From: Eubacteriales bacterium
GTDB lineage: Bacteria; Bacillota; Clostridia; Lachnospirales; Lachnospiraceae
DNA length: 64,000 bases
Reading direction: 5' to 3'
Assembly (NCBI GenBank): GCA_030537195.1
Contig: JAUNOK010000009.1
Location: 1 to 64,000, forward strand
Numbering within the stretch: the stretch's first letter is position 1; each line of letters opens with the position of its first letter. Below are positions 3,568 to 64,000 of the stretch, in pieces. The notes under the pieces were generated by a model. That model made no database searches. It was given only the letters and a program-made list of their open reading frames with translations, and was not told the DNA's origin. Both the position numbers and the translations under genes were made by a program.

Positions 3568-3588
3568 CTATTGTATAGGAGGAGCAAC

Positions 3589-47795: not shown

Positions 47796-47913
47796 GATAA
47801 TATTAATCCTTTCATATTAATTTCTTTATAATTATTGCATTGTTGATTGGATATTTCAAGGTAAAATGTGTTAATATGTTTACTATATTGATATGTGAAA
47901 AGAAAGGGTAGAT

Positions 47914-48708: not shown

Positions 48709-48793
48709 TGGTATTTTCTGAGCAGTACTGCATTGCATAATCAAATAAACATTGGAAAATTCAAAATAAATCGAAAAAGAGCATAAACATAAG

Positions 48794-48822
48794 TTGAAAG
48801 TCATATTTTGCCGTGATAATAT
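48794..48822 (+). promoter_or_regulatory. Putative promoter of the SipW/TasA-like gene cluster
   Basis: TTGAAA (48794-48799), 17-bp spacer, TAATAT (48817-48822) in the 221-bp gap before the cluster. The remaining 100 bp form an AT-rich leader with GGTGG at 48904-48908, 21 bp before the ATG, too far for an ordinary SD. Confidence 0.4.
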
Positions 48823-48929
48823 ATATTTAGTTTATAGTGTTTAAAAATTAAGCATAATAGAAATGACATTTTTATAAAAATGTTTTATTGAATGTTACAA
48901 AAAGGTGGTGAGCCTCAGGCATATCAGCA

Positions 48930-49832
48930 ATGGAATCATTAACTGAAAAGAACACTAATGAAAATATAGAAACTTCAAAGCATCTGCGTGGCAAATTCAG
49001 CTGGGCAGTGCTGGCACTGATTATAACTTTGATTGCGGTTGTTTCAGCAACTTATGCATGGTATATTTACAATACAAGGCGGCATACTACAAAGGTTCAG
49101 CTTGCTGCGGGTGCGGGTGTTAATTTGCAGATCAGCAATGCGTATGATGGACCTTATGCTTCAGCGTCAGTATTGGACAATTTTGAAGGACAGTTAAATC
49201 CGGTATCGACTAATTACATAGAAGGTGGATTCCAGAAAGTTCTCGGATTTACGAATGGTACAGAAAATCAGCCAATGCTGGTTGCCAATCTTTTTGGCAG
49301 AGTAGAGCACAGTGATTACTATAAGACAAGCCTTTTTTTAAGGAGTAATGGCAGCACGACAGATATTTACCTGTCAGACATTGGCTATGAAGACAGTGAC
49401 GAAACCAATCCAATCTCATCTGCAATCCGCGTTGGTTTTGTGGTACACCAGAACGGTGAGGACCAGCCGTCCCAGGGAGAATATATTTTTGCAATCAGTG
49501 ACAAGAAGAACCCTCAGGCTGAATACAATACAGCGACAGGTCAGGAAGGATATGTGCTGGACAGTACGAAGACTGATGGCACAACAGTGCCATTTGAGCC
49601 ATATACAGCTGCTGCATATTGTGATTATGATCAGAATACAGGAACTGTGACATTAAATAATAGCTCACAGAGATTATGCACATTATATGGTGCAGATGAC
49701 GGACAGCCGGGAACGCCGGTGCAGATAGATGTGTATATCTGGCTGGAAGGCTGCGATGAAGACTGCACCGGCAATCTCAGTAGTCAGACACTAAGAAATC
49801 TTGTAATTTCATTTGCAGGTGTTGTGAAGTAA
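48930..49832 (+). CDS. SipW/TasA-type secreted subunit-like protein 1, 300 aa
   Basis: A long signal sequence: about 24 cytosolic residues, a hydrophobic run, and T-Y-A-W-Y at 41-45, the SipW/TasA-type processing region. A beta-rich domain follows with a conserved S-A-I-R-V-G-F segment and, near the end, W-L-E-G-C-D-E-D-C, closing with S-F-A-G-V. The same order is found in the next three genes and in 59327. Several Cys suggest disulfides or metal binding. First gene of the cluster. It is probably a minor or adaptor subunit of a fibre or coat. The exact role is inferred. Confidence 0.75.
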   Translation: MESLTEKNTNENIETSKHLRGKFSWAVLALIITLIAVVSATYAWYIYNTRRHTTKVQLAAGAGVNLQISNAYDGPYASASVLDNFEGQLNPVSTNYIEGGFQKVLGFTNGTENQPMLVANLFGRVEHSDYYKTSLFLRSNGSTTDIYLSDIGYEDSDETNPISSAIRVGFVVHQNGEDQPSQGEYIFAISDKKNPQAEYNTATGQEGYVLDSTKTDGTTVPFEPYTAAAYCDYDQNTGTVTLNNSSQRLCTLYGADDGQPGTPVQIDVYIWLEGCDEDCTGNLSSQTLRNLVISFAGVVK

Positions 49833-49847
49833 ATTGGAGGCGGATTT

Positions 49848-50696
49848 GTGGATAAAGAAGTTAAACAATTGAAGAAATCTCTTGTGATAGCGATTGCAGG
49901 CATCCTGTTTTTAATCATTGTTGCAACAGGTACAACTTACGCATGGTTTACGTTGTCGGGGATGGCTTCTACTAATGTCACGCCAACAGGCGGTACTATT
50001 AGTCAGGGCGATGCGGTATTATTGATTTCTAACAGTGCATCAGGGCCTTTTGATAAGACGTGTGATCTGGTTTTTACAGGAAATCCTGAAACATTGAAAC
50101 CTTTATCTACAGCAAATCTTGAAAATTTTTATAAATCTACAGCACAGAATGAAGATGGCATTTCCATATTGTATACCGGTGTAGACAATGTTAATCAGAA
50201 TGCGCTCCACGGTACAGTCTATTTGCAGTGCCAGAATGCGCCATGCAGCGTTTATTTTAATCCATCAGCGTTGAATCTTGGCAGTGATGTGCAGACACTG
50301 GCAGCGATGCGCCTGGGATTAAAAATCACATCACATGCAGGTACAGAAACATTGATTTTCAGGCTGGATGATCTTGGGGCAGTTCAAAATGCACAGTCAA
50401 AACGAACAGTGCCAACGGCATCGACGGTTGTGTCATCAATATCTGCCAGTGGGCAGGCTGCTTATGTGAATGACCCGGCACAGAATCTGTCAGGTTATAT
50501 GGCACAGCCGGGCGCAGATGAGAGTATGTTTCGTGCAGGAACGACACCGTTGATTTTATTGAATACGGATGAGGTTGCAACTGTTGAATATTGGTTGTAT
50601 CTGGAAGGCTGTGATGACGAGTGCTACAATGTCGTACAGAGCAGAACTTCCGAAATTACACTGGCATTTGCCGGTGTAACTGCAGATGAAGAATAG
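49848..50696 (+). CDS. SipW/TasA-type secreted subunit-like protein 2, 282 aa
   Basis: GTG start after GGAGGCGG. Signal with T-Y-A-W-F at 30-34, a beta-rich body with A-A-M-R-L-G-L, and Y-L-E-G-C-D-D-E-C then A-F-A-G-V at the end. It shares the plan of its neighbours but little direct identity outside the motifs. Likely cleaved by one of the two SipW-type peptidases encoded downstream. It starts 15 bp after the first gene. Confidence 0.75.
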   Translation: MDKEVKQLKKSLVIAIAGILFLIIVATGTTYAWFTLSGMASTNVTPTGGTISQGDAVLLISNSASGPFDKTCDLVFTGNPETLKPLSTANLENFYKSTAQNEDGISILYTGVDNVNQNALHGTVYLQCQNAPCSVYFNPSALNLGSDVQTLAAMRLGLKITSHAGTETLIFRLDDLGAVQNAQSKRTVPTASTVVSSISASGQAAYVNDPAQNLSGYMAQPGADESMFRAGTTPLILLNTDEVATVEYWLYLEGCDDECYNVVQSRTSEITLAFAGVTADEE

Positions 50697-50713
50697 AAAG
50701 GAGCTGATTTGCG

Positions 50714-51577
50714 GTGAAGCATACGTTTAAAACATGGTTTTTTGGAATAACGATGATATTTGCGGTGTTGGCACTTGCATTTGCAACGTATGCATGGTTT
50801 ACCACAAATCGAGCGGTATCGACAAGCACTGCGACGGCAAGAACAGGGGAAGAAGCACTGGAATTGCAGATCAGTAGTCAGGGTGGCAGCGATTTTACAG
50901 ATATGGATACGGTGCCAATCACGCAGATCAACCAAACCGATGCAGGATATCTGATGCCGGTGTCAACGGATGACCTTGTAAGTTTTGTGTATTCACCATT
51001 AACACAGGATGGTATGGCAACAGTATTTCGGCTGGTTGAGAATGAACAATACTATTATCATGGCAGAGTATATCTACGGGCAGTCGGTGAGGGATGGCCA
51101 TCTGGCAGTAGGATGAATCTCTATCTGGATCAGACAGATGACCTGCTTGGCAAGAATGTTGATGGCATGATGTTAAAAGCAGCGCGGTTAGGCCTGGTTT
51201 TTGGAAACGACAGTAGCACAGCTGTGATTCTGCGTCTGAGTGAAGACCAGGACAATCAGTCACAGCGTGTTTACAATACGGTCATCAATGGACAGACACT
51301 CGGAGATGGACAGGTGCTTGGTTATCACAACGGTAATGTTGTCGCACAGAATGACCCAAGTGAATCTGCAGATAACTATACAGTGACTTTTGGCAATAAT
51401 AATATCACTTTGCCGCAGAAATCGCTGTTAAGTATGACTTTCGGACAGATATATCAGGTGGATATTTATTTCTATCTGGAAGGGTGTGACCCGGATTGCT
51501 CCGAAGCTATTCATCTTGATATTGCCGATTTAAACCTTGCATTTTATGGTGTACTTGACCAACAGGAGGGCAATTGA
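50714..51577 (+). CDS. SipW/TasA-type secreted subunit-like protein 3, 287 aa
   Basis: GTG start at 50714 with GGAG upstream. T-Y-A-W-F at 25-29, a beta-rich body with A-A-R-L-G-L-V, Y-L-E-G-C-D-P-D-C near the end and A-F-Y-G-V closing. It also has acidic D-rich loops. Its TGA overlaps the next ATG by one base. Same family by architecture. Confidence 0.75.
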   Translation: MKHTFKTWFFGITMIFAVLALAFATYAWFTTNRAVSTSTATARTGEEALELQISSQGGSDFTDMDTVPITQINQTDAGYLMPVSTDDLVSFVYSPLTQDGMATVFRLVENEQYYYHGRVYLRAVGEGWPSGSRMNLYLDQTDDLLGKNVDGMMLKAARLGLVFGNDSSTAVILRLSEDQDNQSQRVYNTVINGQTLGDGQVLGYHNGNVVAQNDPSESADNYTVTFGNNNITLPQKSLLSMTFGQIYQVDIYFYLEGCDPDCSEAIHLDIADLNLAFYGVLDQQEGN

Positions 51578-52344
51578 TGAAGAAACAGCAGAAAAAAACC
51601 GTTTACAACCGGTTGTACACATCTATTCTGCTTGTGCTGCTTGCGTTGGTTGCAGTAACGGCGGCGACTGTGGCATGGTTTTCCATTGCGGACAAAACCA
51701 GAGTCCGGACGATGAGCCTGGATATTATAACGGATGTTGAGATGCGCATGGATCTGGATTCACATGCAACGATTGATGATTATGTGAAAACACTTACATT
51801 TGACCAGATTGCAGAGCGTATGCAGATTGAAAAAGGATTTTCAATGTCGGATACACCGCTAAAGCCAGTGACAACTTCCGATTGTGATATATTTACATAT
51901 GAGAATGGCTCTGTGGTAGAAAGTACAAGTGGTTCTTATCTGGAATTTACGCTGCATTTTATGGCAGCCAGGGATATGATTGTACATTTGACAAGCGCGA
52001 ACAGTAGTGAAAAAGCAAGTGACGGAACAGCGGTACTTTCTGAGAATCCAGAATTACCACTGGCAATGAGAATTTCTTTCACAGCAGATGAACAGAACTG
52101 GATTTATGATCCAGGAGAGGGCAATGAAGCAAGTCCATCGGGAAACATTATATATTTCGGACTGCCTGATGCGGCATCCATGGAATTATCCGACAACAAT
52201 GCCATGTTTTCTTTAAAAGAAGGTGAAGATAAAGCGGTTGTTGTACATATTTGGTTAGAGGGTACAGACCCGGCATGTACAGATGCCTTAAGAGCGTCAG
52301 ATTATGCCATTCGCCTGAGATTTACAGGTACAGATATGGAATGA
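51577..52344 (+). CDS. SipW/TasA-type secreted subunit-like protein 4, 255 aa
   Basis: ATG at 51577 follows AGGAGGG and overlaps the previous stop. Signal core T-V-A-W-F at 31-35, L-A-M-R-I-S-F in the body, and a variant end motif W-L-E-G-T-D-P-A-C in which the first Cys is Thr; R-F-T-G-T closes. Loss of one motif Cys suggests a specialised member. A 68-bp gap separates it from the peptidase gene. Confidence 0.72.
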   Translation: MKKQQKKTVYNRLYTSILLVLLALVAVTAATVAWFSIADKTRVRTMSLDIITDVEMRMDLDSHATIDDYVKTLTFDQIAERMQIEKGFSMSDTPLKPVTTSDCDIFTYENGSVVESTSGSYLEFTLHFMAARDMIVHLTSANSSEKASDGTAVLSENPELPLAMRISFTADEQNWIYDPGEGNEASPSGNIIYFGLPDAASMELSDNNAMFSLKEGEDKAVVVHIWLEGTDPACTDALRASDYAIRLRFTGTDME

Positions 52345-52412
52345 AACACATTTTCTGCACAGTAGCAGAAGATTTAAATATAAAGACAAATGAAAATTAA
52401 GGAGAAGAAAAA

Positions 52413-53186
52413 ATGAAAGCAGTAAAACGTGTGGGCACAATTTTGCTCAGTGTTATTCTATGGGCGGTGATTTTAATTGCAGCATTATATGCATTTACAA
52501 CAATGGCGACGAAGGATAATCAGAATGTATCCCGTATACTAGGATATACACCAATGGTCGTAAAGTCTGATTCCATGGCACCAACATTCAGTGCCGGTGA
52601 TTTGATTTTTATTAAGAAATGTGATACATCCAAACTGGAAAAGGGAGATATTATCTGTTTCCATACAATTATTAATAATGAATATGCATTGAATACTCAC
52701 CGTATTCAGGATATTGAAACATCAGGTGGTGCGAGAAGTTATACAACAATCGGTGATAACAATAATGGTATTGCCGACCAGCATATTATTTCTGATGGTG
52801 ATATTGTTGGTAAATATGTGGGTCATCTGGCAAAAGTAGGTAATGTGATGGATTTCCTTTCAAGCAGTATCGGATTTCTTCTTGTAATTGTACTTCCTAT
52901 GTTATTATTCTTTATATATCAGGTATACCATTTGATTATGATCAGTATCCGCCTGAAAAAAGCAGTTGCTGTTGAAGCTGCACAGGAAGCAAAAGCATCT
53001 GGTAATGATGATGCAGCGGCAAAACTCGAAGAAGCCAGAAAGATGCGTGAAGAAGCTGAAGCAATCCGTGCGCAGGCTGAGGCCGAACTTGCGAAGGCAA
53101 GAGCAGCCAAGGAGGAAAAGACAGACTCTGATAACAGCGATACAACACAGGAAAAGGAAGATAATTCTGCCAAAGATGCCCAGTAG
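52413..53186 (+). CDS. sipW: SipW-type signal peptidase I with coiled-coil tail, 257 aa
   Basis: ER/archaeal-type type I signal peptidase: a membrane helix (about 8-30), catalytic S54 in S-D-S-M-A-P-T, H96 in N-T-H-R in place of the bacterial lysine, and acidic G-D-N-N-N-G near 114-119. A second membrane helix (about 150-175) leads to an unusual 75-residue Ala/Glu-rich helical tail, predicted cytosolic and coiled-coil-forming. Such enzymes process TasA-type precursors. AAGGAG precedes the ATG. The tail may dock to the coiled-coil DUF2357 protein. Confidence 0.88.
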   Translation: MKAVKRVGTILLSVILWAVILIAALYAFTTMATKDNQNVSRILGYTPMVVKSDSMAPTFSAGDLIFIKKCDTSKLEKGDIICFHTIINNEYALNTHRIQDIETSGGARSYTTIGDNNNGIADQHIISDGDIVGKYVGHLAKVGNVMDFLSSSIGFLLVIVLPMLLFFIYQVYHLIMISIRLKKAVAVEAAQEAKASGNDDAAAKLEEARKMREEAEAIRAQAEAELAKARAAKEEKTDSDNSDTTQEKEDNSAKDAQ

Positions 53187-53205
53187 GACGGGAGGTTGAT
53201 ACACA

Positions 53206-54840
53206 GTGAGTGAATTTTTGAAATTTGCATATGAAATACTATCTCAGGTAGTTTATAATATTGTGACATTTGTTGCTTCATTTTTAAATTTATTTATTAC
53301 CGGATGGGGCGAATATTTTGAAATTTTTAAAACATATTTTCCAACATTAAATGTTATCGGGAAGATTTTATCCATACTGTTAATGTTATTACTTGCTGCG
53401 ATTCCGATTATATGCATTTTACTCATTGTGAGAAAATTCATTCTGCATCGTAAGCTCAAAAAAGATAAAACAGATAATGCGGTATTATATAAAGAAATCG
53501 CACGTTTGAATAAACAGGTATTGTCTCTGATGAATGAGAAAAACAGCATTCTGGCGCTTAAAGTCAATGCTATGGGTGGTGTTGAACGTATTCCATATAT
53601 GGGCGCATCTGCACTGACAGATGACGTTGTGCCTAATGTAGGCAATGTGACCAATCCTGAAAATGTAGCGGCTGCCAATGCTGGTGTTGTTGGCGATGCA
53701 AATGCTAAGAATGCCCCGGTAGTACGTGCTGTAGTAGAAAATGGCGCAGAAGATACTACAGTGCATCGTTTTCCGAAATTATCCCTTGTGGATAAGAAAT
53801 ATAAGGATTTTCAGTATCCTGTATATAATGAAGAAGTCACACTGGAACAATTTGCTGAGGGCTATCGTCTCTTTGCAGCCAGCCAGATGGGATTGTATTA
53901 TACACCAGAAATCGTCCGGAGATTTATTGCAGGTATGGCAGCCAGTAAATTGTTGATTCTGGAAGGTATTTCTGGTACAGGTAAGACAAGTTTACCTTAT
54001 TCATTCAGTCGTTATATGGAAAATCCAGCAACAATCGTATCTGTACAGCCATCTTTCCGTGACCGTACAGAATTGCTTGGTTACTTTAATGAATTTTCAA
54101 AACGATTCAATGAGACAGAGTTTTTAAGAGCACTCTATGAAGCAAACTTTACACCGACACCGACCCTGATTGTCCTTGATGAGATGAACCTTGCGCGTAT
54201 CGAGTATTATTTTGCAGAAATGCTTTCAGTACTTGAAATGCCAAGTAAAGACGAATGGACATTAGACCTTGTGCCAACACACTGGGAGGGTGACCCTGAA
54301 AAAATTGTTGATGGTAAAATCCATGTATCAGATGCAACATGGTTTGTCGGTACAGCTAATAACGATGATTCTACATTTACAATCACGGATAAAGTATATG
54401 ACCGTGCTATGCCAATCGAATTGAACGAGAGAGCAGATCCATTTGAATGTGAGACTTATCCACATTGCGATATTACAGCAGAGCATCTGTACCAATTGTT
54501 TAAAAAAGCAAAAGAAGATTATCCAATCAGCGATGAACTTCTTGATAAGATGCAGAAACTTGACAGCTACCTGCAGACCCGATTCAAACTTTCATTTGGT
54601 AACCGTATTATGAAGCAGTTGAATGATTTTATTCCGGTTTATGTTGCATGTGGTGGTACGGAACTTGGCGGTATGGATTATATTATCGCGCGTAAAGTAC
54701 TTAAGAAGTTTGAAAGTATGAATGTCACATTTGTAAGAGATGAAATTACAGGATTAATCAGTTATATAGAGAAGACATTTGGTAGTGAAGGCATGCAGGA
54801 CAGTAAAGATTACCTTAGAAGAATCCAGAACCTGTACTAA
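53206..54840 (+). CDS. Membrane-anchored McrB-type AAA+ ATPase, 544 aa
   Basis: Two membrane segments (about 14-34 and 52-78) precede a coiled coil (about 92-120) and an Ala/Asn/Val-rich linker. The AAA+ domain begins near 215: Walker A G-I-S-G-T-G-K-T at 254-261, Walker B L-I-V-L-D-E-M-N-L-A-R-I-E at 321-333 (the McrB-type D-E-M-N-L-A-R signature), sensor G-T-A-N-N-D at 382-387, R400. All ATPase motifs are intact. In McrB these drive a DNA-translocating ring; here the membrane anchor and neighbours point to an envelope role. GTG start with GGGAGG. Confidence 0.88.
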   Translation: MSEFLKFAYEILSQVVYNIVTFVASFLNLFITGWGEYFEIFKTYFPTLNVIGKILSILLMLLLAAIPIICILLIVRKFILHRKLKKDKTDNAVLYKEIARLNKQVLSLMNEKNSILALKVNAMGGVERIPYMGASALTDDVVPNVGNVTNPENVAAANAGVVGDANAKNAPVVRAVVENGAEDTTVHRFPKLSLVDKKYKDFQYPVYNEEVTLEQFAEGYRLFAASQMGLYYTPEIVRRFIAGMAASKLLILEGISGTGKTSLPYSFSRYMENPATIVSVQPSFRDRTELLGYFNEFSKRFNETEFLRALYEANFTPTPTLIVLDEMNLARIEYYFAEMLSVLEMPSKDEWTLDLVPTHWEGDPEKIVDGKIHVSDATWFVGTANNDDSTFTITDKVYDRAMPIELNERADPFECETYPHCDITAEHLYQLFKKAKEDYPISDELLDKMQKLDSYLQTRFKLSFGNRIMKQLNDFIPVYVACGGTELGGMDYIIARKVLKKFESMNVTFVRDEITGLISYIEKTFGSEGMQDSKDYLRRIQNLY

Positions 54841-54870
54841 TGTATGCACAAGTAATGAGGAGAAGATACT

Positions 54871-56730
54871 ATGGCGGATACAATTGATGAGTTATATTCG
54901 AAATATACCAGCCAGGTAGAAGAAGCACTGGAAGATGACAGATATTTTCAATATCTGTTCGAGATGATTCAGGCAGGTGATAATACGCTGCAGCAGAAGA
55001 ACCGTGTGCTTCATAAAGTGGTAGATGAGCGATGGCTGACAGTCGTTGAGGAAGGTATTAAAGCGATATTTAATATCGTGGATAAGCCGCGGCGGTTTAT
55101 TGCGACAACAGAAGAAGTTGTTCCGGTGGCTCTGGCTAAAAAAATCACTGCGGACAGTGTACGCCATCTCAGTCAGAATACACAGTTTATTGCCCAGAAT
55201 GCAGATGGAGAAATTCATCCGACAAAAATATTAAATGTAACAACTGAAGAAAGTTTTGATCTGTACGAGAATAGGTTTGTGTATCATCTGATTCAGCGGT
55301 TATTTGCATTCGTAGATAAGAGAACAGATGTTATCTTCTGGTCTACCGGGGATGAAACCTGTAATGTCATGAGCATGGAAAGCAAAGTCGATGATGCTTA
55401 TGAACAGATTTCTTACAAGGTTGAAATGACAATCAAGAATCGTCAGAGTTATGTGGAAAATGATGACGACCATATGGAAATCTTTAAAAGAATCGACCAT
55501 GTACGCCGAATGTCAAGAGCATTAAGAACAAGCTCGTTCTGTGATATTATGAATGGATGTGCCAAGGTGCGAAGTCCGATTCAGCGAACCAACCTGATGA
55601 TGAAAGATCCTGATTACAGGACATGTTACCAATTATGGCAGTTTATTGAAAGCTATGATGAGGTTGGCTATACCATTGAAGAACGCGATTCGGCGATGGA
55701 ATTTGATGAGGAATACCTGTTACAGATGTACATCAACATGATTACAAACTATACGGTATTTAAGAGCCTTCTGGAAGCAGATCCGCGAAGACTGACAGAA
55801 CTTGCTTCAAAGAAACGTGAGCCGGTCAAACCGAAATTTATTAAAGAAATAAAAGAAGAAATTGTTGAAGATCGTAATATCCCGGATGTGGAAATCCGTC
55901 AGGTATTTGTGGAGGAGGTAACACAGGCACAGCTCGATGCAGAGGCCAGATTAAAAGAGGAAACAGAACGCAGAGAGCAGTTGGAGAAATCTGTGAACAA
56001 TCTTGAGTGGCAGGTAGAATCTCTGAATCAGGAAATGCAGATTGCTGAGCAGACTCATATTCAGCTGGAAGAAGAAAAAGATTACCTGATGACACAGCTT
56101 GAGTCAGAGACGACGACAAGAAAGAAAGCGGAAGAAGCTGTATTGCAGGCACAGACAGAGGCTGAGGCAAAAGTAGAACAGGTGCAGGCAGAAGCCGAGA
56201 CAAAAGTAGAACAGGCGCAGACTGACGCAAAGAAAAATCTTGAGCAGGCACAGGAAGAAGCAAGACAGCATGTGGAACAGCTTCAGAATGAGCATGAGCA
56301 ATATGTGATACAGATAAAAAGTGAAGCTGATAGGCAGATTGTTCAGGTTAAGAATGATGCTTCTGTGCAGATTCAGCAGATTAGGGATGCAGCGGCACAG
56401 GATATTGAAAAAGCAATAGCGGAAGAAAACAATGCAAAGGATATCGCAAAGAAAGCTGTTGAAGAAAATTATGCATTAAATGAAATGATTAAAGCTACAC
56501 AGATGCAGATTACAGCCTTAGAAGAACAGCTTGAAAGAATCAGGCGTGAAAGTGCCGAAGCTATATCCAAAGTTGAAAGAGAAAAAGAAGAAGCTGTTAC
56601 CAAAGCTGAGAAAGAAAGAGAAGAAGCAATCGCGAAAGCCGAAGCTAACAGTCTTTCACATTATATTGTAAATGCTCTTCAGGAGCGTAAAGAACGCAAA
56701 AAATCCAAAGAGGATAACAGTGAAAAATGA
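54871..56730 (+). CDS. DUF2357 protein with long hendecad coiled coil, 619 aa
   Basis: The N-terminal part (about 70-330) is DUF2357-like, as in McrB-partner proteins. T-T-E-E-S-F-D-L-Y-E-N-R-F-V at 124-137 is the hallmark, and N-L-M-M-K-D-P-D-Y-R at 241-250 follows. In known partners a PD-(D/E)xK nuclease follows; none is visible here. Instead residues about 340-610 form a continuous charged coiled coil, with nine uninterrupted 11-residue repeats (418-516). It starts 30 bp after the AAA+ gene and overlaps the second peptidase by ATGA. Probably the ATPase's structural partner. The link to restriction is lost. Confidence 0.78.
   Translation: MADTIDELYSKYTSQVEEALEDDRYFQYLFEMIQAGDNTLQQKNRVLHKVVDERWLTVVEEGIKAIFNIVDKPRRFIATTEEVVPVALAKKITADSVRHLSQNTQFIAQNADGEIHPTKILNVTTEESFDLYENRFVYHLIQRLFAFVDKRTDVIFWSTGDETCNVMSMESKVDDAYEQISYKVEMTIKNRQSYVENDDDHMEIFKRIDHVRRMSRALRTSSFCDIMNGCAKVRSPIQRTNLMMKDPDYRTCYQLWQFIESYDEVGYTIEERDSAMEFDEEYLLQMYINMITNYTVFKSLLEADPRRLTELASKKREPVKPKFIKEIKEEIVEDRNIPDVEIRQVFVEEVTQAQLDAEARLKEETERREQLEKSVNNLEWQVESLNQEMQIAEQTHIQLEEEKDYLMTQLESETTTRKKAEEAVLQAQTEAEAKVEQVQAEAETKVEQAQTDAKKNLEQAQEEARQHVEQLQNEHEQYVIQIKSEADRQIVQVKNDASVQIQQIRDAAAQDIEKAIAEENNAKDIAKKAVEENYALNEMIKATQMQITALEEQLERIRRESAEAISKVEREKEEAVTKAEKEREEAIAKAEANSLSHYIVNALQERKERKKSKEDNSEK
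56122..56418 (+). repeat. Nine in-frame 33-bp (11-residue) coiled-coil repeats
   Basis: Encodes residues 418-516 of the DUF2357 protein: K-K-A-E-E-A-V-L-Q-A-Q then eight further units of the same length with consensus x-x-A-x-x-x-V-x-Q-(V/A/I)-(Q/K) and no gaps. Hendecads favour near-straight or right-handed coiled coils. Confidence 0.8.
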
Positions 56731-57344
56731 TGAGAAAGATTATTTATGGATTTATTAATATTCTTTCTGTGCTGATTATTGTTGCAGCAGTCATAGTACT
56801 ATGTATTGTTCTAATGACCAAACCGGGAGAACCACCCAATATTTTTGGATATACAGCACTTCGCGTTACGACAGGCAGCATGGAACCGACATATGGTGTG
56901 GACACGCTGATTTTAGTGAAAGAAACAGATCCGGCTGCAATCAGTGAGGGAGATGTGATTTCTTTCTATTCATCAGACCCGGCATTAGACGGTGCAGTCA
57001 ATACGCACAGAGTTGTTGAAGTCAGAAAAGATGGAGATAATTATATGTATGTCACTAAAGGAGATGCCAATAATGTTCCGGACATGTATGATGTTAATTC
57101 AAAATATCTGATTGGTAAGGTTGTGGCATCTTCACTGGTTATCGGCAAGATTTCAAGACTCTGCGCTAATCCACTGATATTCGTCCCTGTGATTCTGATA
57201 CCGCTCGCAATTATGCTGATTGCAAATGTTGTGCACACATGCAGGCTTGCAAAAAAGATTGCAAAAGAAGAAACGGAAGCAGCCGTAAGAGAAGCTATAG
57301 ATGAGATAAAGCAGAAGAAAAATGCGAAGGAAAATCAAAAGTAG
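56727..57344 (+). CDS. sipW: SipW-type signal peptidase I, second copy, 205 aa
   Basis: Membrane helix (about 6-30), S51 in G-S-M-E-P-T-Y, H94 in N-T-H-R-V, K-G-D-A-N-N near 111-116 and a second helix (about 149-170), then a short charged tail. Ser-His type as in SipW. It overlaps the DUF2357 gene by 4 bp. Having two such peptidases in one cluster suggests separate substrate groups. Confidence 0.88.
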   Translation: MMRKIIYGFINILSVLIIVAAVIVLCIVLMTKPGEPPNIFGYTALRVTTGSMEPTYGVDTLILVKETDPAAISEGDVISFYSSDPALDGAVNTHRVVEVRKDGDNYMYVTKGDANNVPDMYDVNSKYLIGKVVASSLVIGKISRLCANPLIFVPVILIPLAIMLIANVVHTCRLAKKIAKEETEAAVREAIDEIKQKKNAKENQK

Positions 57345-57443
57345 ACTTACAACAAATGGTATGCTAAAATACATCAGGAAAATTTTAAATAATAAAAATA
57401 ATCATATAATAATTATGATTTGAAGATACTCGGAGGAAATAAT

Positions 57444-58127
57444 ATGGCAGGGACTATACAGATTAAGCCAGGTACAAAGATGCGACTTGCATTGGATGTG
57501 CCAGCTGGACAGACTCCACAGTTCAATATGGTCAGTACATTTAATAAAGCATTGGATGAATCTGCTTTTCTTGTGTCTGTACCGATGCGTGATGGCAAAG
57601 CATATGTTCCAGAGGAAACTCAGAAGATATTGTTCCAGTATGGCGTAGGTGAGGAAACTGCTGTTATAGCGGGGTATGTAGACGATGTTGTAAAGGAAGG
57701 TATTCGTCGCTTCTGGAAAGTACGAAGGGTTGTTGAACAGCGACAGTTCATTAATCGTGTGGATGTCCGTATGAAAGTTGGATTGCCTGTGCAGTATATG
57801 CAGGACACATGGGCATTAAATTCCGCAGGTGAGATTGATAAAGAATCCGGAGAAACGATGGATATTTCAAACGGCGGTCTTGCGGTGTGCGTAAACCGGT
57901 GGTTTGGAGTTGGAGAAACATGTATTTTTACATTGCCAAGAATGGGAACAGAATCTGAAGGCGTTCCTGAATTGGAGGTTGTTGGTGTGATATGTTGGAT
58001 GCGTGAACTTCCAAAGGGCAGTGCGTTCAGATTTGTTGCAGGTATTCAATTACGATTTGCAGATGTGCAGGAACGTATTGAGATGCAGAAATACGTGGCT
58101 TATGTAAAGAAAAGATATAAGCTGTGA
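57444..58127 (+). CDS. PilZ-domain protein (predicted c-di-GMP receptor), 227 aa
   Basis: An N-terminal YcgR-like beta domain (about 1-90) is followed by PilZ (about 95-220): R100 and R105 in Q-R-Q-F-I-N-R-V-D-V, and D140-I-S-N-G-G145. The first motif has four residues between the arginines where the family usually has three; D-x-S-x-x-G is intact. ATG 57444 follows GGAGGAA; a TTG at 57420 is rejected. It would make the cluster responsive to c-di-GMP. It is 9 bp before a membrane protein gene. Confidence 0.82.
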   Translation: MAGTIQIKPGTKMRLALDVPAGQTPQFNMVSTFNKALDESAFLVSVPMRDGKAYVPEETQKILFQYGVGEETAVIAGYVDDVVKEGIRRFWKVRRVVEQRQFINRVDVRMKVGLPVQYMQDTWALNSAGEIDKESGETMDISNGGLAVCVNRWFGVGETCIFTLPRMGTESEGVPELEVVGVICWMRELPKGSAFRFVAGIQLRFADVQERIEMQKYVAYVKKRYKL

Positions 58128-58135
58128 GGATGACT

Positions 58136-59137
58136 ATGAAGAAATCAAAAAAGATAAAAAAAACGCAGGAATCCAAAGAAACCAGAAAATCACATAAATC
58201 TCCCAGATTGAAAAAATCCAGGTCGGATCAGATAGTCCGTATAGAAGAGCTTGAAGATCTGATGGAGAAATACGGGGATGATGTAGACCCGGAGCAGATT
58301 GTCAGTATGTATATACCTCATCGAAAGGGGAAAAAGATTGGTGCGGCGCTGCTTCGTATGGATAAGCTACATCTGGCATTGCTTGGATTGATGCTTTTGA
58401 TTGCTGTTTTATTTATCGTCGCATTTATGCAGGAAAAGATGGGTAACTTTACAATTAACTTAAACCGTCTGGAACTGTATCGAAAAGGTATCAGTATTGC
58501 TGATAATGGCGATTTTACCAATGCGACTGCAAGGCTGATGGCAGATACTGTTGTGGATGCGACCAATATTTCTATAGAAGATATCCCTGCAGATGTGGAT
58601 GATATCGAGGGTACACATAACGGCAAAAACTACATGGCGTATACATATTATGTGCGTAATGCCGGCAAAGAAGATCTGGGTTATATTGCAAGAATCAAAT
58701 TAGATTCCTGCTCTAAAGGTGCAGAAAATGCAGTGCGAGTGGCTGTCTGGAAAAATGGAGAGCGCGTTGTCTATGCAGAACCGGCAGCAGACGGCGGTGA
58801 GGAAGATGGTTGTACGAGCTTTGTATCTAAAGATGTGGTGTGTGAGTATACAGAAAATAATTTCCTTGTAGGCAATGTAGATAAATATACGATTGTCATA
58901 TGGATGGATGGCGATGATCCGGAATGTGTTGATTCAATCATTGGTGGCAGCGTTCAGTTCAGCATGAACATTGATGCAGATTATGATGACGAAACAAGTC
59001 TTTTATGGAAATTCATCACAGATATCAAAGATACACTGACAGGCGATAAACCAATCAATGCTGCAGGCAACAAAGCACCAAATGACAGCTATTACACAGA
59101 CAAAGATATTACCTGGAAAACAAGAAGAAATCAGTAA
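58136..59137 (+). CDS. Membrane-anchored coat-like protein with basic cytosolic tail, 333 aa
   Basis: A strongly basic, Ser/Lys-rich N-terminus (1-75), one membrane helix (about 78-98) and an external beta-rich domain. It carries a variant of the cluster motif, I-V-I-W-M-D-G-D-D-P-E-C near 255-268. It has no T-Y-A-W-F-type processing site, so it probably stays in the membrane as an anchor or base. ATG 58136 follows GAGG. The basic tail may meet PilZ or the acidic coiled coils. Confidence 0.65.
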   Translation: MKKSKKIKKTQESKETRKSHKSPRLKKSRSDQIVRIEELEDLMEKYGDDVDPEQIVSMYIPHRKGKKIGAALLRMDKLHLALLGLMLLIAVLFIVAFMQEKMGNFTINLNRLELYRKGISIADNGDFTNATARLMADTVVDATNISIEDIPADVDDIEGTHNGKNYMAYTYYVRNAGKEDLGYIARIKLDSCSKGAENAVRVAVWKNGERVVYAEPAADGGEEDGCTSFVSKDVVCEYTENNFLVGNVDKYTIVIWMDGDDPECVDSIIGGSVQFSMNIDADYDDETSLLWKFITDIKDTLTGDKPINAAGNKAPNDSYYTDKDITWKTRRNQ

Positions 59138-59326
59138 GCAGAAAGAATGACAAAGAGTCAGAAAAATATGATAAATAATAAAATAAGACTGGAAAACTAA
59201 TATCCAATTTGTTATTATTATAATTAACAAAATACAATTCGGTGTTGCAACCGCTGAGTTATATATGGTAAACAAATAAATATGTTGCAAAATTATTTCA
59301 TAATACGAACTTAAGGAGGAAATAAT

Positions 59327-60190
59327 ATGAAAGAAACAAAGAGTGTTAAAGCACTGAAAAAACAGCTTATGGCTGCAATCGCCATGGTATGCGTTGCCGC
59401 TATCGCGCTGGGAACAAGTACATATGCTTGGTTTGTAAGTAACAATGCTGTAACAGCAACGGGTGTTGACCTTAGTACAACATCATCTGTACCAAACCTT
59501 TATATTACATCATCAGGTAAAACTACAGATGCGGCAATTGCTGCTGGAACAAATCCAACTAAATTATATCCAACATCAACAAAAGATGCCACTAACTTCT
59601 TTGAGACAAAGCACTGGACATCTGGAACAGGCAAAAATGCTGTTGCAGATCAGTATCAAGAAGCGTTGACTCATGAGCAGGGAAAGACTGTATATGCAGA
59701 TTACACATTTGTACTTGGTGTAACTAACGGAACAATGGATGTTTATTTTGATAGCGATGTAGCCACAACAACTTTAAAAGCTAATGGAAAAATGGGTACA
59801 GCTGCACGTTTTGCAATCAAATTTGATGATGGTAATTGGACAATGTTTAAAGTGGCTGGTACAGAGACTGGTGATGGCTATTATACTGACCAGGATGCTT
59901 CAACAGGTGATTATTGGGTTACAGCAGCAGGTACAAACACAATTGCCACAGCAAAATATGCTGAAATGACTGACTATTCAGGTAGTGTTAATACTCAGGG
60001 ACAAGCACAGGCAGGAACAACAAAATTAACTACTATTTCAAGTGATAAAACCCAGACAGTTACAGTTCGTGTTTGGTATGAAGGCTGTGACAAAGATTGC
60101 GTTTCTGAAAATGCAAAAGATGGAATCACAAATGCTGTAACAGGTAATCTTGGATTTGTAGGTGTTCAGGTAACTTCTCCAGAAGCATAA
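59327..60190 (+). CDS. TasA-like major subunit candidate, 287 aa
   Basis: Signal with T-Y-A-W-F at 32-36, then a Thr/Ala/Ser-rich beta protein with A-A-R-F-A-I-K-F and W-Y-E-G-C-D-K-D-C near the end, closing G-F-V-G-V. Only two Cys appear in the mature part, both in this motif. The 189-bp leader, consensus AAGGAGG and strong terminator point to high separate expression, as expected of a main fibre component. Low-complexity Thr-rich composition agrees. The polymer state is inferred. Confidence 0.72.
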   Translation: MKETKSVKALKKQLMAAIAMVCVAAIALGTSTYAWFVSNNAVTATGVDLSTTSSVPNLYITSSGKTTDAAIAAGTNPTKLYPTSTKDATNFFETKHWTSGTGKNAVADQYQEALTHEQGKTVYADYTFVLGVTNGTMDVYFDSDVATTTLKANGKMGTAARFAIKFDDGNWTMFKVAGTETGDGYYTDQDASTGDYWVTAAGTNTIATAKYAEMTDYSGSVNTQGQAQAGTTKLTTISSDKTQTVTVRVWYEGCDKDCVSENAKDGITNAVTGNLGFVGVQVTSPEA

Positions 60191-60220
60191 TCCAAGTAAA
60201 AGCTGTAATATTTTAGAATC

Positions 60221-60248
60221 CCCAGACGGTAGCACCGTCTGGGTTTTT
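60221..60248 (+). terminator. Strong terminator after the TasA-like gene
   Basis: CCCAGACGGT (60221-60230) pairs perfectly with ACCGTCTGGG (60234-60243) around a 3-nt loop, then TTTTT. It lies in the 314-bp gap 60191-60504, which also has the promoter at 60329 and otherwise holds no gene I can see. Confidence 0.92.
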
Positions 60249-60328
60249 CTTTTGCCTTAATTTTTCATATTGTCTGCTACCTGCAAACTCTTCACTCTTT
60301 TTTAAACTCCATTTTCTGCAAGTAACGC

Positions 60329-60357
60329 TTGAGAGTAAGGGTAAAAAAGGGTATACT
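60329..60357 (+). promoter_or_regulatory. Sigma-A-type promoter of the second SipW gene set
   Basis: TTGAGA (60329-60334), 17-bp spacer, TATACT (60352-60357). About 148 bp of leader remain before the next start. Confidence 0.6.
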
Positions 60358-60504
60358 TATACTGATATTAATGTATCACATTTTGAAGATACAGAACTTA
60401 TAAATATAAAACAACAAGAACATTTGACAACAGGGTACACCAGATAATCCATCAGAACCGATGTAAGATATTTTGTTTCAGGTAGATTAAGAAGGAGACG
60501 CAAA

Positions 60505-61665
60505 TTGTTCCAACATAATAAAACAATAGAGAAAAAAGATATAGCACAAGAAAATTATGAGCATTTAAGAAAAGAACAGAAAAAAATAATTGCCAGAATG
60601 ATAGTTATCATTCTGGCTGTGATTGCTGTAGTTGTTGCACTGTGCATAGCCTGGTTTGTGAATAATACAAGAGTTCAGTCAAAAGGTATGACAATCAGTA
60701 CAGATGCGGGAATCGTTGAATTAAGAACATCTGGTGGAGCAGGAATACATGACGATGTATTGAAAAAGATTATGGACTCAGGGCAGACTAATAAAAGTTT
60801 TTGGTATGAGCTGGCAGATAAAGTTAATGGCTTTTTCGAAACATCATCGGATAAATATGCAATAAACTGGCTGCTGAGTGATGATAGCAATATGGGAAAC
60901 TACAGTACAGAACAGCCAGACTGGGAACAATACTGGGAAAACGCACAATCGGGAGCGGAACGTCAGGATGAGGCGATTGAGCCGGGGTCTTCAGGAAGAC
61001 TAACATTCTATGTAGTTCCAAAGTATAATGGAACGGTAGAGTTGAACATGAATCTGAGTCTGATTCCTTATAAATTAGAAAACAATGAATTTAAAGAGAT
61101 TACAGAAGACGATGAAACTGATAAAGTTGCCAAAGACTTTGTTGATGGGCATATTATATTTTGTCTGGAAAAAGAAACAGATACAAGTGCAGATACAAAA
61201 GAGATTCAGTGGATTAAAGATGGCACATTTGATATAAAGATAGAAAATGCAGAAAAAGATAAAGAGTACGAATATACGTTATACTGGTGCTGGCCGCATA
61301 GTTTTGGTGAGGCGGTTCTGAAAGCAGAAGACTCCTATCTTAGTGGAAGAGATATACTTTTTTCTGAGTATAAGAATGGTGAAACTGTGAGAAATACAAT
61401 TTTACAGACAGATGAATTGTCAATGGTGAAGAAACCGGGACAGTATTTTTACAGTAGTCTGACAAAGAAACCATTAGATGCAGAGCAGAAAGAATTGAGG
61501 GAAATTGCAGGTATGTACAATAATTCTCCAGCAGATTTTAGCGATGCAGCCAAAAATGCATATGTCGAATTGAGTTCCTATTACAATCAGGCAGACCAGT
61601 ATATTGGAAGTCATGTGGACTGCATAAGAATACAGCTTGCAGCGCAGCCTGTGGAAGGAAAGTAA
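60505..61665 (+). CDS. SipW-type signal protein without EGCD motif, set 2 protein 1, 386 aa
   Basis: TTG start after AAGGAG. A 30-residue basic cytosolic part, a hydrophobic run and C-I-A-W-F at 47-51. The external part is acidic and has no E-G-C-D motif or A-A-R core, so it belongs to a second type. Tyr/Trp-rich segments (W-E-Q-Y-W) occur near 150. It is six bases from the next gene, in one operon. Role unknown, possibly accessory or assembly. Confidence 0.68.
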   Translation: MFQHNKTIEKKDIAQENYEHLRKEQKKIIARMIVIILAVIAVVVALCIAWFVNNTRVQSKGMTISTDAGIVELRTSGGAGIHDDVLKKIMDSGQTNKSFWYELADKVNGFFETSSDKYAINWLLSDDSNMGNYSTEQPDWEQYWENAQSGAERQDEAIEPGSSGRLTFYVVPKYNGTVELNMNLSLIPYKLENNEFKEITEDDETDKVAKDFVDGHIIFCLEKETDTSADTKEIQWIKDGTFDIKIENAEKDKEYEYTLYWCWPHSFGEAVLKAEDSYLSGRDILFSEYKNGETVRNTILQTDELSMVKKPGQYFYSSLTKKPLDAEQKELREIAGMYNNSPADFSDAAKNAYVELSSYYNQADQYIGSHVDCIRIQLAAQPVEGK

Positions 61666-61671
61666 AGGCTT

Positions 61672-62445
61672 ATGGAGAATCAGATACATAATATGGATAA
61701 TAAAAGTAAAATGAATAACAAAGTAAAAAAAATGTATATCAGTTCCATAATTGCATTGATTCTGGCATTGACTGCACTGATTGGAGTGACACTTGCCTGG
61801 TTTTTTAACAGGAGAGAACTTGATACATTAACATGGATTAAAACACCGACCCGTCTGGATATTGGAAGTGGTAACAATCATGATATTGCATATCTTGATC
61901 TGGGTTCTATCGATGCAGATACGGAAAGTAGAGAAGTTGAGCAGGTATTCTGTGTATATGGAGAATCGGTGGATATATATTCTTTGCAGCTTGCATATAC
62001 AACTAATATTGCTTTTTATTATGATATCTACAGAGCAAGCTATGATCCGGATAATGGAAATGTTGAATTTACTTATACAGATAACAATGGAGATCATACA
62101 GAGAAGTTCAGTTATAACCCGGGTTCTACGCCTGTAATTCAGGCGAAGCCGCTTAATAAAATGGATGCAGCTGAAGTAGCTACACATCAGAGTCATGCAT
62201 TAAGCTATGGTGATGACAAGGGACTTAATCCTGTAGAAACGAGCAAGGTCCAGAGCAATGCAGAGCCTTTGTACTGGCTGGCTAGTGAAAATGGATTGAA
62301 TGTTATGAAACCACAGGAAGTGAAGACAGATATAACAGGTTCTGCTTACTTCTGCGATTATTATGTGATTAAAATTCACTGGGATGAGGAAACAGTTATA
62401 AATGATAAGGAAACGGATATGGTTTATCTTACCGTGAGCCGATAA
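61672..62445 (+). CDS. SipW-type signal protein, set 2 protein 2, 257 aa
   Basis: Signal core T-L-A-W-F at 40-44 after a basic N-terminus. The body is beta-rich, Asp/Tyr-rich, with no E-G-C-D motif. It ends V-Y-L-T-V-S-R. Same operon position as its neighbours, 6 bp after protein 1 and 17 bp before protein 3. Not recognised further. Confidence 0.65.
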   Translation: MENQIHNMDNKSKMNNKVKKMYISSIIALILALTALIGVTLAWFFNRRELDTLTWIKTPTRLDIGSGNNHDIAYLDLGSIDADTESREVEQVFCVYGESVDIYSLQLAYTTNIAFYYDIYRASYDPDNGNVEFTYTDNNGDHTEKFSYNPGSTPVIQAKPLNKMDAAEVATHQSHALSYGDDKGLNPVETSKVQSNAEPLYWLASENGLNVMKPQEVKTDITGSAYFCDYYVIKIHWDEETVINDKETDMVYLTVSR

Positions 62446-62462
62446 CGTGGAGGAATATCAAA

Positions 62463-63368
62463 TTGAAAAAAATAAAAAGACTGACAGTTATTTATTTTGC
62501 ACTTGCTGCTATATTGGCGGTGATAGCTGTTACTTTTGCTGCATATACCAGACTTAGCAGTGCGAAACGTGTCGTCACTGTAAAAGGTACAGAACAACTT
62601 TTTACATCAGATGTATTGATGGAATATCAGCAGGATTCACAGATACAGACCAGAGTACTTTCCTTTGGAGAGGAAGAAAAAGTGTTTTCTATCACTGTCT
62701 CCAATCATCTGCAGGGTGATAAGACAAAGTATGATACCAAAAACATACCATATACATTAAAGGTTGAACTTCTGGATGCGGATGGTAAATCTGTTACAGA
62801 TAGCAATGTTTATTCAATGTTGTCTGTAAATGGAACAAGTATGGCTTCAAATCCTGTTTCAATATCAGACCAGGTATTAAATGGCGTAGAAGCAAAGGAT
62901 ATTATGTATACGTTTCGTTTTGATTCAGAAATCATGAACTATCGTATTAAGATAACAGCAGAGACAACAAGAAGTGAATACAAATCCCTTGGACGCGTAA
63001 TCTCTATTACAACCAATTCTGCCGCAACCGATTGGAGCGGAAGCTTTATAGATGCTGAGAAGACAGCAGTGGATGCCAATAAAGAATTAGGAATTATCAA
63101 TTATAAGATTTCCGGACAGACAGAAGGAGATTATGTACTTAGCTGGGATTCTGCCAGGGTGGAGATTGACAAGTGGTGTCTTGAAAAAATGACATCAACA
63201 AAGCCAGCAAAGAATGATAACAATAATATTGAATCAGTGGAACTGCATCTTGGAGCAGAGAATACACCTAAGCAGTATCTTATTACTTTTTACCGTACCT
63301 ATGCGGAGCAGGATCTTAATGAAGATTGGAATACAATAAGCAAATATATTAATTTCCAAAAGAAATAG
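62463..63368 (+). CDS. SipW-type signal-like protein, set 2 protein 3, 301 aa
   Basis: TTG start with GGAGGAA. A shorter signal with T-F-A-A-Y at 24-28, closer to the TasA processing site than those of its neighbours. A beta-rich external domain with V-F-S-I-T-V-S-N and D-S-A-R-V-E-I strands follows. No E-G-C-D motif. It precedes a large surface protein by 17 bp. Confidence 0.65.
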   Translation: MKKIKRLTVIYFALAAILAVIAVTFAAYTRLSSAKRVVTVKGTEQLFTSDVLMEYQQDSQIQTRVLSFGEEEKVFSITVSNHLQGDKTKYDTKNIPYTLKVELLDADGKSVTDSNVYSMLSVNGTSMASNPVSISDQVLNGVEAKDIMYTFRFDSEIMNYRIKITAETTRSEYKSLGRVISITTNSAATDWSGSFIDAEKTAVDANKELGIINYKISGQTEGDYVLSWDSARVEIDKWCLEKMTSTKPAKNDNNNIESVELHLGAENTPKQYLITFYRTYAEQDLNEDWNTISKYINFQKK

Positions 63369-63385
63369 AGAGGAAGTACAGAGAC

Positions 63386-64000
63386 ATGAGAAAATGTAAA
63401 TACAGAAAAATACTTGCGGTGATACTGGCTGCCTCAATGACTTTTCAATACATGCCTTCTGTTGTAGCTGGTTCAGGAAAAAACAATGATATAATTTCAC
63501 AGAATGATGAAACAACAGCTGTGGAGCAAGAGACAGAAAAACAACAGGAGTCTCAAGCTGGTGAAGAATCGCAGACTAATGTTTCCTCTGAAACAGAAAA
63601 ACAACCACAGACAGAAGAACTAACAGAACAGGAGCCTCAGACAGAAATGAATCAGGCAAATAATGAGGCGGGTACTGATTTGCAGTCTTTGGTAGTTGAT
63701 AATAAAGTGCAAATTAATAGTTCAGAGGATTTTATTAATTTATCTAATGAAGATGCAGTTAACTATGAGAATGCAGAAATCACAATTACACGTGGTGGAG
63801 ATGTCGCATTTGATCTGACAAAAGCAATAAATGGAAAGACATTCAAGGGCTTTGGAGACAAAGATCATCCATTCAAGGGTACGATTAAGGTTACGAATCC
63901 AGAGAGTAATATTGAAATACCGGTAAATAATACATTCTTTAATTATCTGGATCAAAGTGCAATAATTGGTAATGGTTTATATCTGAAAGCAGGAGATAAT
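63386..64000 (+). CDS. Large secreted protein, N-terminal 205 aa (continues past window)
   Basis: ATG 63386 follows AGAGGAAG; the frame runs open to the window end. A classical signal peptide (about 1-29) ends V-V-A-G. Then comes a Gln/Glu/Thr-rich low-complexity region (about 45-110, repeats of E-T-E-K-Q) and the start of a beta-structured domain with K-G-F-G-D-K-D-H-P-F-K-G. It has a Sec-type signal unlike its neighbours. Likely an adhesin or surface partner of the cluster. Confidence 0.7.
   Translation, partial: MRKCKYRKILAVILAASMTFQYMPSVVAGSGKNNDIISQNDETTAVEQETEKQQESQAGEESQTNVSSETEKQPQTEELTEQEPQTEMNQANNEAGTDLQSLVVDNKVQINSSEDFINLSNEDAVNYENAEITITRGGDVAFDLTKAINGKTFKGFGDKDHPFKGTIKVTNPESNIEIPVNNTFFNYLDQSAIIGNGLYLKAGDN

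Follow-up and report, generated by a model that had tools for sequence, protein, structure and literature searches.

A SipW-linked McrB/McrC-type gene cluster in a Lachnospiraceae genome: a candidate system for assembly of a surface polymer

The window analysed here, a stretch of 64,000 bases, comprises bases 1–64,000 of an 87,448-base contig (JAUNOK010000009.1) from a member of the Lachnospiraceae. Its right part carries a cluster of genes in which an McrB-type AAA+ protein with N-terminal membrane helices and an McrC-type partner stand between two SipW-type signal peptidases and are surrounded by secreted proteins with SipW-type signals. The linkage of the McrB–McrC pair to SipW is conserved in loci from many Clostridia, and in some of these the McrC-type protein is fused to the SipW domain itself. 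We consider it probable (roughly 0.6) that the cluster serves the nucleoside triphosphate (NTP)-driven, cyclic di-GMP (c-di-GMP)-linked biogenesis of a surface polymer, either a fibre or a sheath, from SipW-processed subunits, with the coiled coil of the McrC-type protein coupling an McrB-type ring to a peptidase and a single-pass membrane protein acting as the base.

Gene content of the cluster

The cluster consists of 15 genes on the + strand, starting at position 48,930 and ending at contig base 73,732, so that 14 complete genes and the start of the fifteenth lie inside the window. Four SipW-type secreted proteins are followed by the first SipW peptidase, the McrB-type AAA+ protein, the McrC-type DUF2357 protein and the second SipW peptidase, and then by a PilZ protein, a single-pass membrane protein, the secreted protein encoded at 59,327, three further secreted proteins and a secreted giant of 3,448 residues. 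Twelve of the 14 intergenic gaps measure −4 to 75 bases; the remaining two, of 189 and 314 bases, flank the gene at 59,327. The individual features are as follows.

48,930–49,832, + strand: SipW-type secreted protein 1 (SATYAWY; WLEGCD near the C-terminus)
49,848–50,696, + strand: SipW-type secreted protein 2 (TTYAWF; YLEGCD)
50,714–51,577, + strand: SipW-type secreted protein 3 (ATYAWF; YLEGCD)
51,574–52,344, + strand: SipW-type secreted protein 4 (ATVAWF; WLEGTD)
52,413–53,186, + strand: SipW-type signal peptidase 1, with a charged tail besides its two membrane helices (TIGR02228, 100.5 bits; SDSMAP, NTHR)
53,206–54,840, + strand: AAA+ NTPase of the McrB type; membrane helices at the N-terminus, presumed coiled coil (GISGTGKT as Walker A, DEMN as Walker B, NNDD)
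54,871–56,730, + strand: McrC-type protein, N-terminal half DUF2357-type (from the matches of its relatives), C-terminal coiled coil (from composition)
56,727–57,344, + strand: SipW-type signal peptidase 2, at the position of the McrC–SipW fusion in other species (TIGR02228, 97.0 bits; TGSMEP, NTHR)
57,420–58,127, + strand: PilZ-domain protein, possible c-di-GMP receptor (Pfam PilZ, E 1.5e-6)
58,124–59,137, + strand: single-pass membrane protein (helix 84–102), candidate base or anchor; N-terminus presumably in the cytoplasm, outer domain resembling the substrates (WMDGDD)
59,327–60,190, + strand: SipW-type secreted protein between the two larger gaps, candidate major subunit (STYAWF; WYEGCD)
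60,221–60,243, + strand: intrinsic-terminator-like hairpin with a T run, 3' of the candidate major subunit
60,505–61,665, + strand: SipW-type secreted protein (CIAWF)
61,672–62,445, + strand: SipW-type secreted protein (TLAWF)
62,463–63,368, + strand: secreted protein with a weaker SipW-type signal (TFAAYT)
63,386–64,000 in the window, continuing to contig base 73,732, + strand: secreted giant of 3,448 residues with 13 GGLVG-like motifs

The larger gaps and the hairpin around the gene at 59,327 suggest that it encodes a separately transcribed, abundant subunit. A Pfam search with the giant protein gave no match at E 0.01.

Most of these parts had been named in an earlier note made from the letters of the stretch, and its account of genes on one strand with short gaps agrees with the layout above. 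The two Ser-His signal peptidases and the PilZ protein that it listed were recovered directly with family models, the McrB-type AAA+ protein with a profile of its relatives, and the DUF2357 protein through the matches of its relatives. Seven of the eight SipW-type signals that it counted pass the strict test described below, the eighth (62,463) having a weaker signal that falls outside that count. The 'membrane coat-like' protein, at 58,124–59,137, does have a membrane helix and shares a motif with the secreted proteins, but the word 'coat' has no support from any family match.

Conserved linkage of McrB, McrC and SipW

Loci for comparison were collected in three sets. The first (L040–L119) contains the best 80 of 123 loci found by McrB similarity, many of them on short contigs. 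The second (L134–L153) contains 20 of the 24 strong family matches besides the window's own genome, with G029, G034, G233 and G420 omitted; two of its loci, L135 and L138, repeat the first-set genomes of L046 and L093. The third contains 14 weaker McrB-like loci from 13 genomes as controls, including one (L133) below the profile threshold. Fifty loci, 48 of them distinct, have at least 6 kb on both sides and are called well-flanked below. The sequences behind the SipW, McrC, EAL and HD_5 profiles come from these loci themselves, though the McrC profile does reach proteins like those of CoCoNuT type IV restriction systems.

A direct profile search found a SipW peptidase in all 80 loci of the first set; one gene-picking pass left a single locus without a separate SipW gene and gave one or two such genes in the others. 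The McrC-type partner is present in 76 of the 80, and in the other four the contig ends 0–169 bases past McrB. Both partners are present in every well-flanked locus (50/50 for McrC and 50/50 for SipW). The McrB and McrC genes are adjacent and on the same strand in 94 of the 96 loci that hold both, McrB is immediately preceded by a SipW peptidase gene in 80 of 100 loci, and the core order is similar in the 16 loci compared. In the second set McrC was found in 20 loci, SipW in 18 and strict xAW[FYLMI] proteins in 16, as against none of the three, by these profiles, in the 14 weaker McrB-like loci.

These counts bear on the simplest alternative, that an unrelated restriction remnant has inserted into an ordinary TasA/SipW cluster. 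The earlier note had proposed a neighbourhood search as the check and had named such an insertion, or a lack of co-occurrence in related genomes, as what would speak against it. The co-occurrence is kept in loci from many Clostridia, and the partner of the AAA+ protein is fused to SipW in seven of them. We reject the insertion on the co-occurrence and the fusions, with the similar core order in 16 loci, SipW in 80/80 and controls at 0/14, and give it almost no weight; what can be said for it is the island status described below, and it is the whole island and not the pair alone that is absent in relatives.

The McrB-type protein

The Walker A (GISGTGKTS), Walker B (DEMN), NxDD and YDRA motifs are invariant across 27 aligned relatives, with NNDD in the window protein, and GTANNDDS or GTANSDDS was found by pattern in 90 of 101 family proteins. 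The window protein matches Pfam AAA_5 below the cut-off. With the profile of the 27 sequences, the sole solved protein at E 0.01 or better was the 5-methylcytosine restriction enzyme B (6hz4, E 0.0056). The best match found for the AAA+ protein is from Blautia sp. MSJ-19, with 79% identity.

Membrane helices and a linker precede the AAA+ core of the window protein, in which Pfam found no nucleic-acid-reading domain; the N-terminal coiled coil was judged by eye in the alignment. A membrane helix stands before the core in 98 of 98 family proteins of at least 430 residues (duplicates included) and in 0 of 13 weaker relatives, a contrast that is partly due to selection because high scores require likeness along the whole of McrB. 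The family and the weaker relatives form separate groups in the tree, with support of 0.944 and 1.0.

The McrC-type protein and the question of defence

A DUF2357 match at E 0.1 or better was obtained for 32 of the 39 members of the McrC-type alignment (best 1.2e-13), and the window protein itself has no DUF2357 match in Pfam or NCBIfam. Its last 279 residues (341–619) contain no G or P, and the longest run in this C-terminal part free of G, P, C and W is 239 residues. In 53 of 53 long unfused relatives, A, E, K, Q, R and N together make up at least 56% of the sequence that follows DUF2357.

Comparison was made with five loci from plasmid and phage records that we label CoCoNuT-like from their gene content. 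They resemble the window cluster in having an McrB-like NTPase with an NxD motif and a DUF2357 partner, and both profiles match all five; they differ in that Walker A is not preceded by a membrane helix and that SipW and xAW[FYLMI] proteins are absent. Past DUF2357 these relatives carry 287–418 globular-looking residues, of which 32–34% are A, E, K, Q, R or N and 13–22% G, P, C or W, with no run longer than 26. Since the window protein and its relatives have a coiled coil where these have a globular part, a nuclease does not fit, and the nuclease domain that follows DUF2357 on the McrC of type IV restriction systems was not found. The silence of Pfam on a nuclease is weak evidence in itself, as the CoCoNuT-like relatives likewise show DUF2357 only.

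The earlier note had described McrB/DUF2357 pairs as normally belonging to nucleic-acid defence. That fits the relatives, but the pair in this cluster departs from it in having a coiled coil, not a globular domain, after DUF2357. Whether McrB and McrC might still be a phage-defence module that uses or guards the cell surface was considered with this in mind. The five matching plasmid and phage regions opened are all CoCoNuT-like McrB/DUF2357 loci, the PADLOC candidate PDC-M26A matches residues 227–346 of the AAA+ protein and no other part of it, and the cluster is an accessory island, all of which are in keeping with defence. Besides the coiled coil, however, the McrB proteins have membrane helices in place of other N-terminal domains, the SipW linkage and the fusion persist through distant lineages, and three McrC-type proteins gave no PADLOC match at E 0.01. 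We regard a defence role as improbable.

As a separate matter, the PDC-M26A match could lead to surface loci of this kind being mislabelled as defence loci.

The SipW-type signal peptidases

Both window peptidases score above the TIGR02228 cut-off of 51.85 and have the SMxP serine and NTHR histidine motifs; of the four TIGR02228 matches in the genome, only these two pass the cut-off. The Bacillus SipW model NF046067 gives 92.5 and 96.5 bits, below its cut-off of 190. The tail past the last membrane helix has a median length of 58 residues in 126 proteins from McrB loci and of 12 in 15 proteins from McrB-free loci (p 3e-6), and the longer tails would face the cytoplasm. Together with the signals of the secreted proteins described below, this sets the SipW systems of McrB loci apart as a distinct branch. 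In 7 of 76 loci, including that of Ruminococcus albus 8, the McrC-type protein ends in a SipW domain.

The fusion, together with the invariant NTPase motifs, points to an action of the McrB–McrC pair on the SipW step, and both a drive for assembly and a gate on processing fit this. If a gate, McrB and McrC would control the peptidases or the quality of their products, by gating, by extraction of misfolded subunits or by activation, and polymerisation would be spontaneous. Membrane proteins are frequent targets of AAA+ proteins, and the fusion of McrC to SipW is as expected for such a role; moreover, a SipW polymer elsewhere, that of BsaA in Clostridium perfringens, forms without an ATPase according to the available part of PMC7395162. 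The long coiled coil and the separate base protein, on the other hand, suit a coupled assembly machine equally well or better. A purely controlling function is thus a serious minority possibility, at somewhat over one chance in five by our estimate of its standing.

The secreted proteins

Under a strict definition of the signal (a hydrophobic core followed by xAW[FYLMI]), 7 of 54 open reading frames (ORFs) in the cluster region are positive, compared with 0 of 133 to the left of the cluster and 1 in 30,000 shuffled N-termini. A C-terminal W.EG.D-like motif is common to secreted proteins 1–4, the single-pass membrane protein and the protein encoded at 59,327. Across the 80 loci the motif occurs in 153 of 186 strict SipW-type ORFs and in 85 of 727 other ORFs; of the latter 85, phmmer matches 79 to a protein of the window. 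With the cut presumed to follow the alanine, an aromatic residue would be the second after the cut, which agrees with the rule for TasA given in the available part of PMC10269814.

With a looser form of the test, xAW[FYLMI] proteins were found in 64 of 80 and 17 of 20 McrB loci, compared with 0 of 14 weaker McrB-like loci. The same test gave 0 of 15 in SipW loci of relatives that lack McrB, one of which (L164) holds a protein whose core ends in GTYAWK and so falls outside the pattern. Signals of the GxxAY type were found in 9 of the 15 McrB-free SipW loci and in 19 of the 80 McrB loci.

c-di-GMP-type genes and the candidate base protein

Of the 80 loci, 19 contain PilZ genes. A counterpart of the membrane protein encoded at 58,124 also adjoins the core in those Ruminococcus-type loci that were opened, where an EAL gene precedes it, and in three loci of the window's own family it is preceded by an HD_5 gene (Pfam). 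A PilZ, EAL or HD_5 gene was found in 46 of 80 loci, 16 of 20 loci of the second set and 0 of 14 controls, and in 38 of the 50 well-flanked loci (37 of 48 without copies). The presence of EAL and HD_5 genes next to the base protein in other lineages opened strengthens the putative link to c-di-GMP.

Comparison with known systems

A single paragraph of Bell et al. 2024 (PMC11090510) gives the name 'CoCoPALM' to McrBC systems linked to signal peptidases and defers their analysis, so the combination that the earlier note found unfamiliar is partly known already. The paragraph describes McrB GTPases with an FtsB-like membrane and coiled-coil domain, neighbouring signal peptidases and coiled coils, and an NxD motif that is usually followed by E or a second D. 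By its predicted features the window cluster conforms in each respect examined: it has NNDD, and NxDD in 27 of 27 relatives, and thus NxD rather than NxxD; a membrane helix and a presumed coiled coil ahead of the NTPase (FtsB being the term of Bell et al.); signal peptidase genes alongside (two in the window and 80 of 80 loci); and a DUF2357 McrC partner with a coiled coil, the DUF2357 assignment coming through relatives. The secreted substrates, the identity of the peptidases as SipW, the McrC–SipW fusion, the base protein, the c-di-GMP-type genes and the giant all go beyond that paragraph. Among the literature matches listed there was no functional description of CoCoPALM, and neither these matches nor the available text of Bell et al. 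2024 describe the substrates, the fusion or the c-di-GMP-type genes; for a pairing of SipW with McrB, only Bell et al. 2024 and its preprint were found among the matches listed, judged by title and start of abstract.

The TasA/SipW system of Bacillus and the BsaA/SipW system of C. perfringens (PMC7395162, as available) resemble the window cluster in having a dedicated SipW and an aromatic residue two places past the presumed cut. The BsaA system differs in that the part of that report available mentions neither an McrB nor an McrC gene. PcdA of Staphylococcus aureus, as described in the accessible part of PMC10602043, is a precedent for an McrB protein moved from restriction to a task in the cell envelope. 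Its NTPase motifs are degraded, it carries EVE domains and it lacks an McrC partner, whereas the window cluster has intact motifs and retains the DUF2357 partner.

Proposed mechanism and its weighing

In the mechanism that we favour, the subunits would leave by the general secretion path and be held in the membrane by the signal helix until the two SipW peptidases cut before the aromatic pair (TYA/WF). At the inner face a membrane-anchored McrB-type ring would hydrolyse NTP, with the DUF2357 part of the McrC-type protein as its activator, and the long coiled coil of the latter would link the ring to the second SipW peptidase so as to energise the release or the assembly of subunits. The single-pass protein encoded at 58,124 would be the base that joins the outer polymer to the inner machine, and the tie to c-di-GMP would run through PilZ or, in other lineages, through the EAL or HD_5 proteins. 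The earlier note had likewise proposed ATP-driven export or assembly under c-di-GMP control; co-occurrence, fusion and EAL/HD_5 neighbours now speak for this, while the AAA+ drive, the polymer and the binding of c-di-GMP keep the standing of suppositions.

A bolder form of this proposal is tentative. The cluster would then encode a surface filament with a motor of its own, separate in origin from type IV pili, archaella and sortase pili, with an McrB ring as motor, an McrC coiled coil as drive shaft fused or coupled to the processing peptidase, and SipW-type subunits as the filament, and hence an independent re-invention, switched by c-di-GMP, of the layout of motor, peptidase and pilin.

Several points weigh against NTP-driven biogenesis of a polymer. 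A TasA-like fold of the subunits and an McrBC-like complex are both presumptive, the cluster being known here from its sequence, and selection contributes to the membrane-helix contrast, as stated above. A profile of 31 substrate sequences gave no match in the PDB, and against TasA and camelysin models only 1 of the 31 sequences matched, weakly, at E 0.082 (camelysin). In 16 of the 80 McrB loci there is no xAW[FYLMI] protein in the stretch fetched, and in 26 of the 80, many on short contigs, there is only one SipW peptidase ORF. One locus of the second set (L150) shows no SipW before the contig ends, and another (L153) has two membrane-anchored McrB genes around one DUF2357-type gene and no SipW on its 12.2-kb contig. 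As to c-di-GMP, the binding motifs of PilZ are RxxxR and (D/N)xSxxG; the alignment of the PilZ family keeps DxSxxG and has RxxxxR for RxxxR, so that the first motif is one residue off. Twelve of the 50 well-flanked loci have no PilZ, EAL or HD_5 gene, and no c-di-GMP riboswitch was found at Rfam gathering scores in the window or, for that matter, in the 11 loci scanned. Finally, the available part of PMC7395162 reports that BsaA of C. perfringens forms polymers when Escherichia coli produces it by itself; a motor is therefore not needed by SipW substrates generally, and the need would be peculiar to this branch.

The role for which McrBC proteins are mainly known is restriction. A putative motor of a restriction family, anchored in the membrane, without a DNA cutter and tied to SipW peptidases and fibre-like proteins, suggests a new way to power the building of surface structures. 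If the proposal is correct, Clostridia of the gut and rumen have converted a defence NTPase into a machine of the cell envelope, and a function could be assigned to the named CoCoPALM class, for which none is described in the literature found. The assembly of SipW-dependent polymers in Clostridia, and the source of its energy, would also become open to direct test.

Accessory island and distribution

The cluster lies in an accessory island, which has the following extent.

48,708–64,000 in the window (contig about 48,708–77,744), no strand assigned: left part of the accessory island (blastn against L198–L201)

Four same-genus genomes in which the two left-flank genes are still neighbours were opened, and all four lack about 29 kb at the site. 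The flanks join directly at about 48,707/77,745 in three of these relatives and are separated by about 90 bases, as matched, in the fourth, which identifies the 29 kb as an accessory island. Its other contents include a LysR-type regulator, a transporter and a fumarate-hydratase-like pair (L009:13743–17750; names by eye). The left flank of the site in the four relatives corresponds to window positions 46,857–48,708, which hold a VanY-type peptidase and a gene of an aminoglycoside acetyltransferase family.

Within the family, 36 of 397 genomes have a match at E 1e-20 or better, 25 of them strong (E below 1e-100, the window's own genome included). A draw from the class gave 21 of 391 at E 1e-60 or better, and one from the phylum gave 1 of 398 at E 1e-50 or better, which is the window's own genome. 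No strong match was found in the 21 same-genus genomes.

Carriage by plasmids or phages was considered and rejected. Twelve plasmid records and one phage record match, none across more than 80% of the query; the ten plasmids listed and the phage are below 40% identical, and the five regions opened are CoCoNuT-like. An unannotated contig of a human-gut phage, MT835511.1 (L206), carries a CoCoNuT-like McrB/DUF2357 pair.

Other observations

In L153 the gene next downstream has a match to an antigen I/II C2 domain. G233 and G420 each have two McrB matches a few kb apart. A Clostridiales-1 small RNA (RF01699) lies between the McrB and McrC genes at L048:11675–11848, and a drum RNA (RF02958) at L040:18743–18854, about 600 bases downstream of a second gene like that at 59,327. 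Near the left end of the window, an HTH-XRE RNA (472–547) and an integrase-like ORF (3,571–4,788, by eye) may be the remnant of a mobile element.

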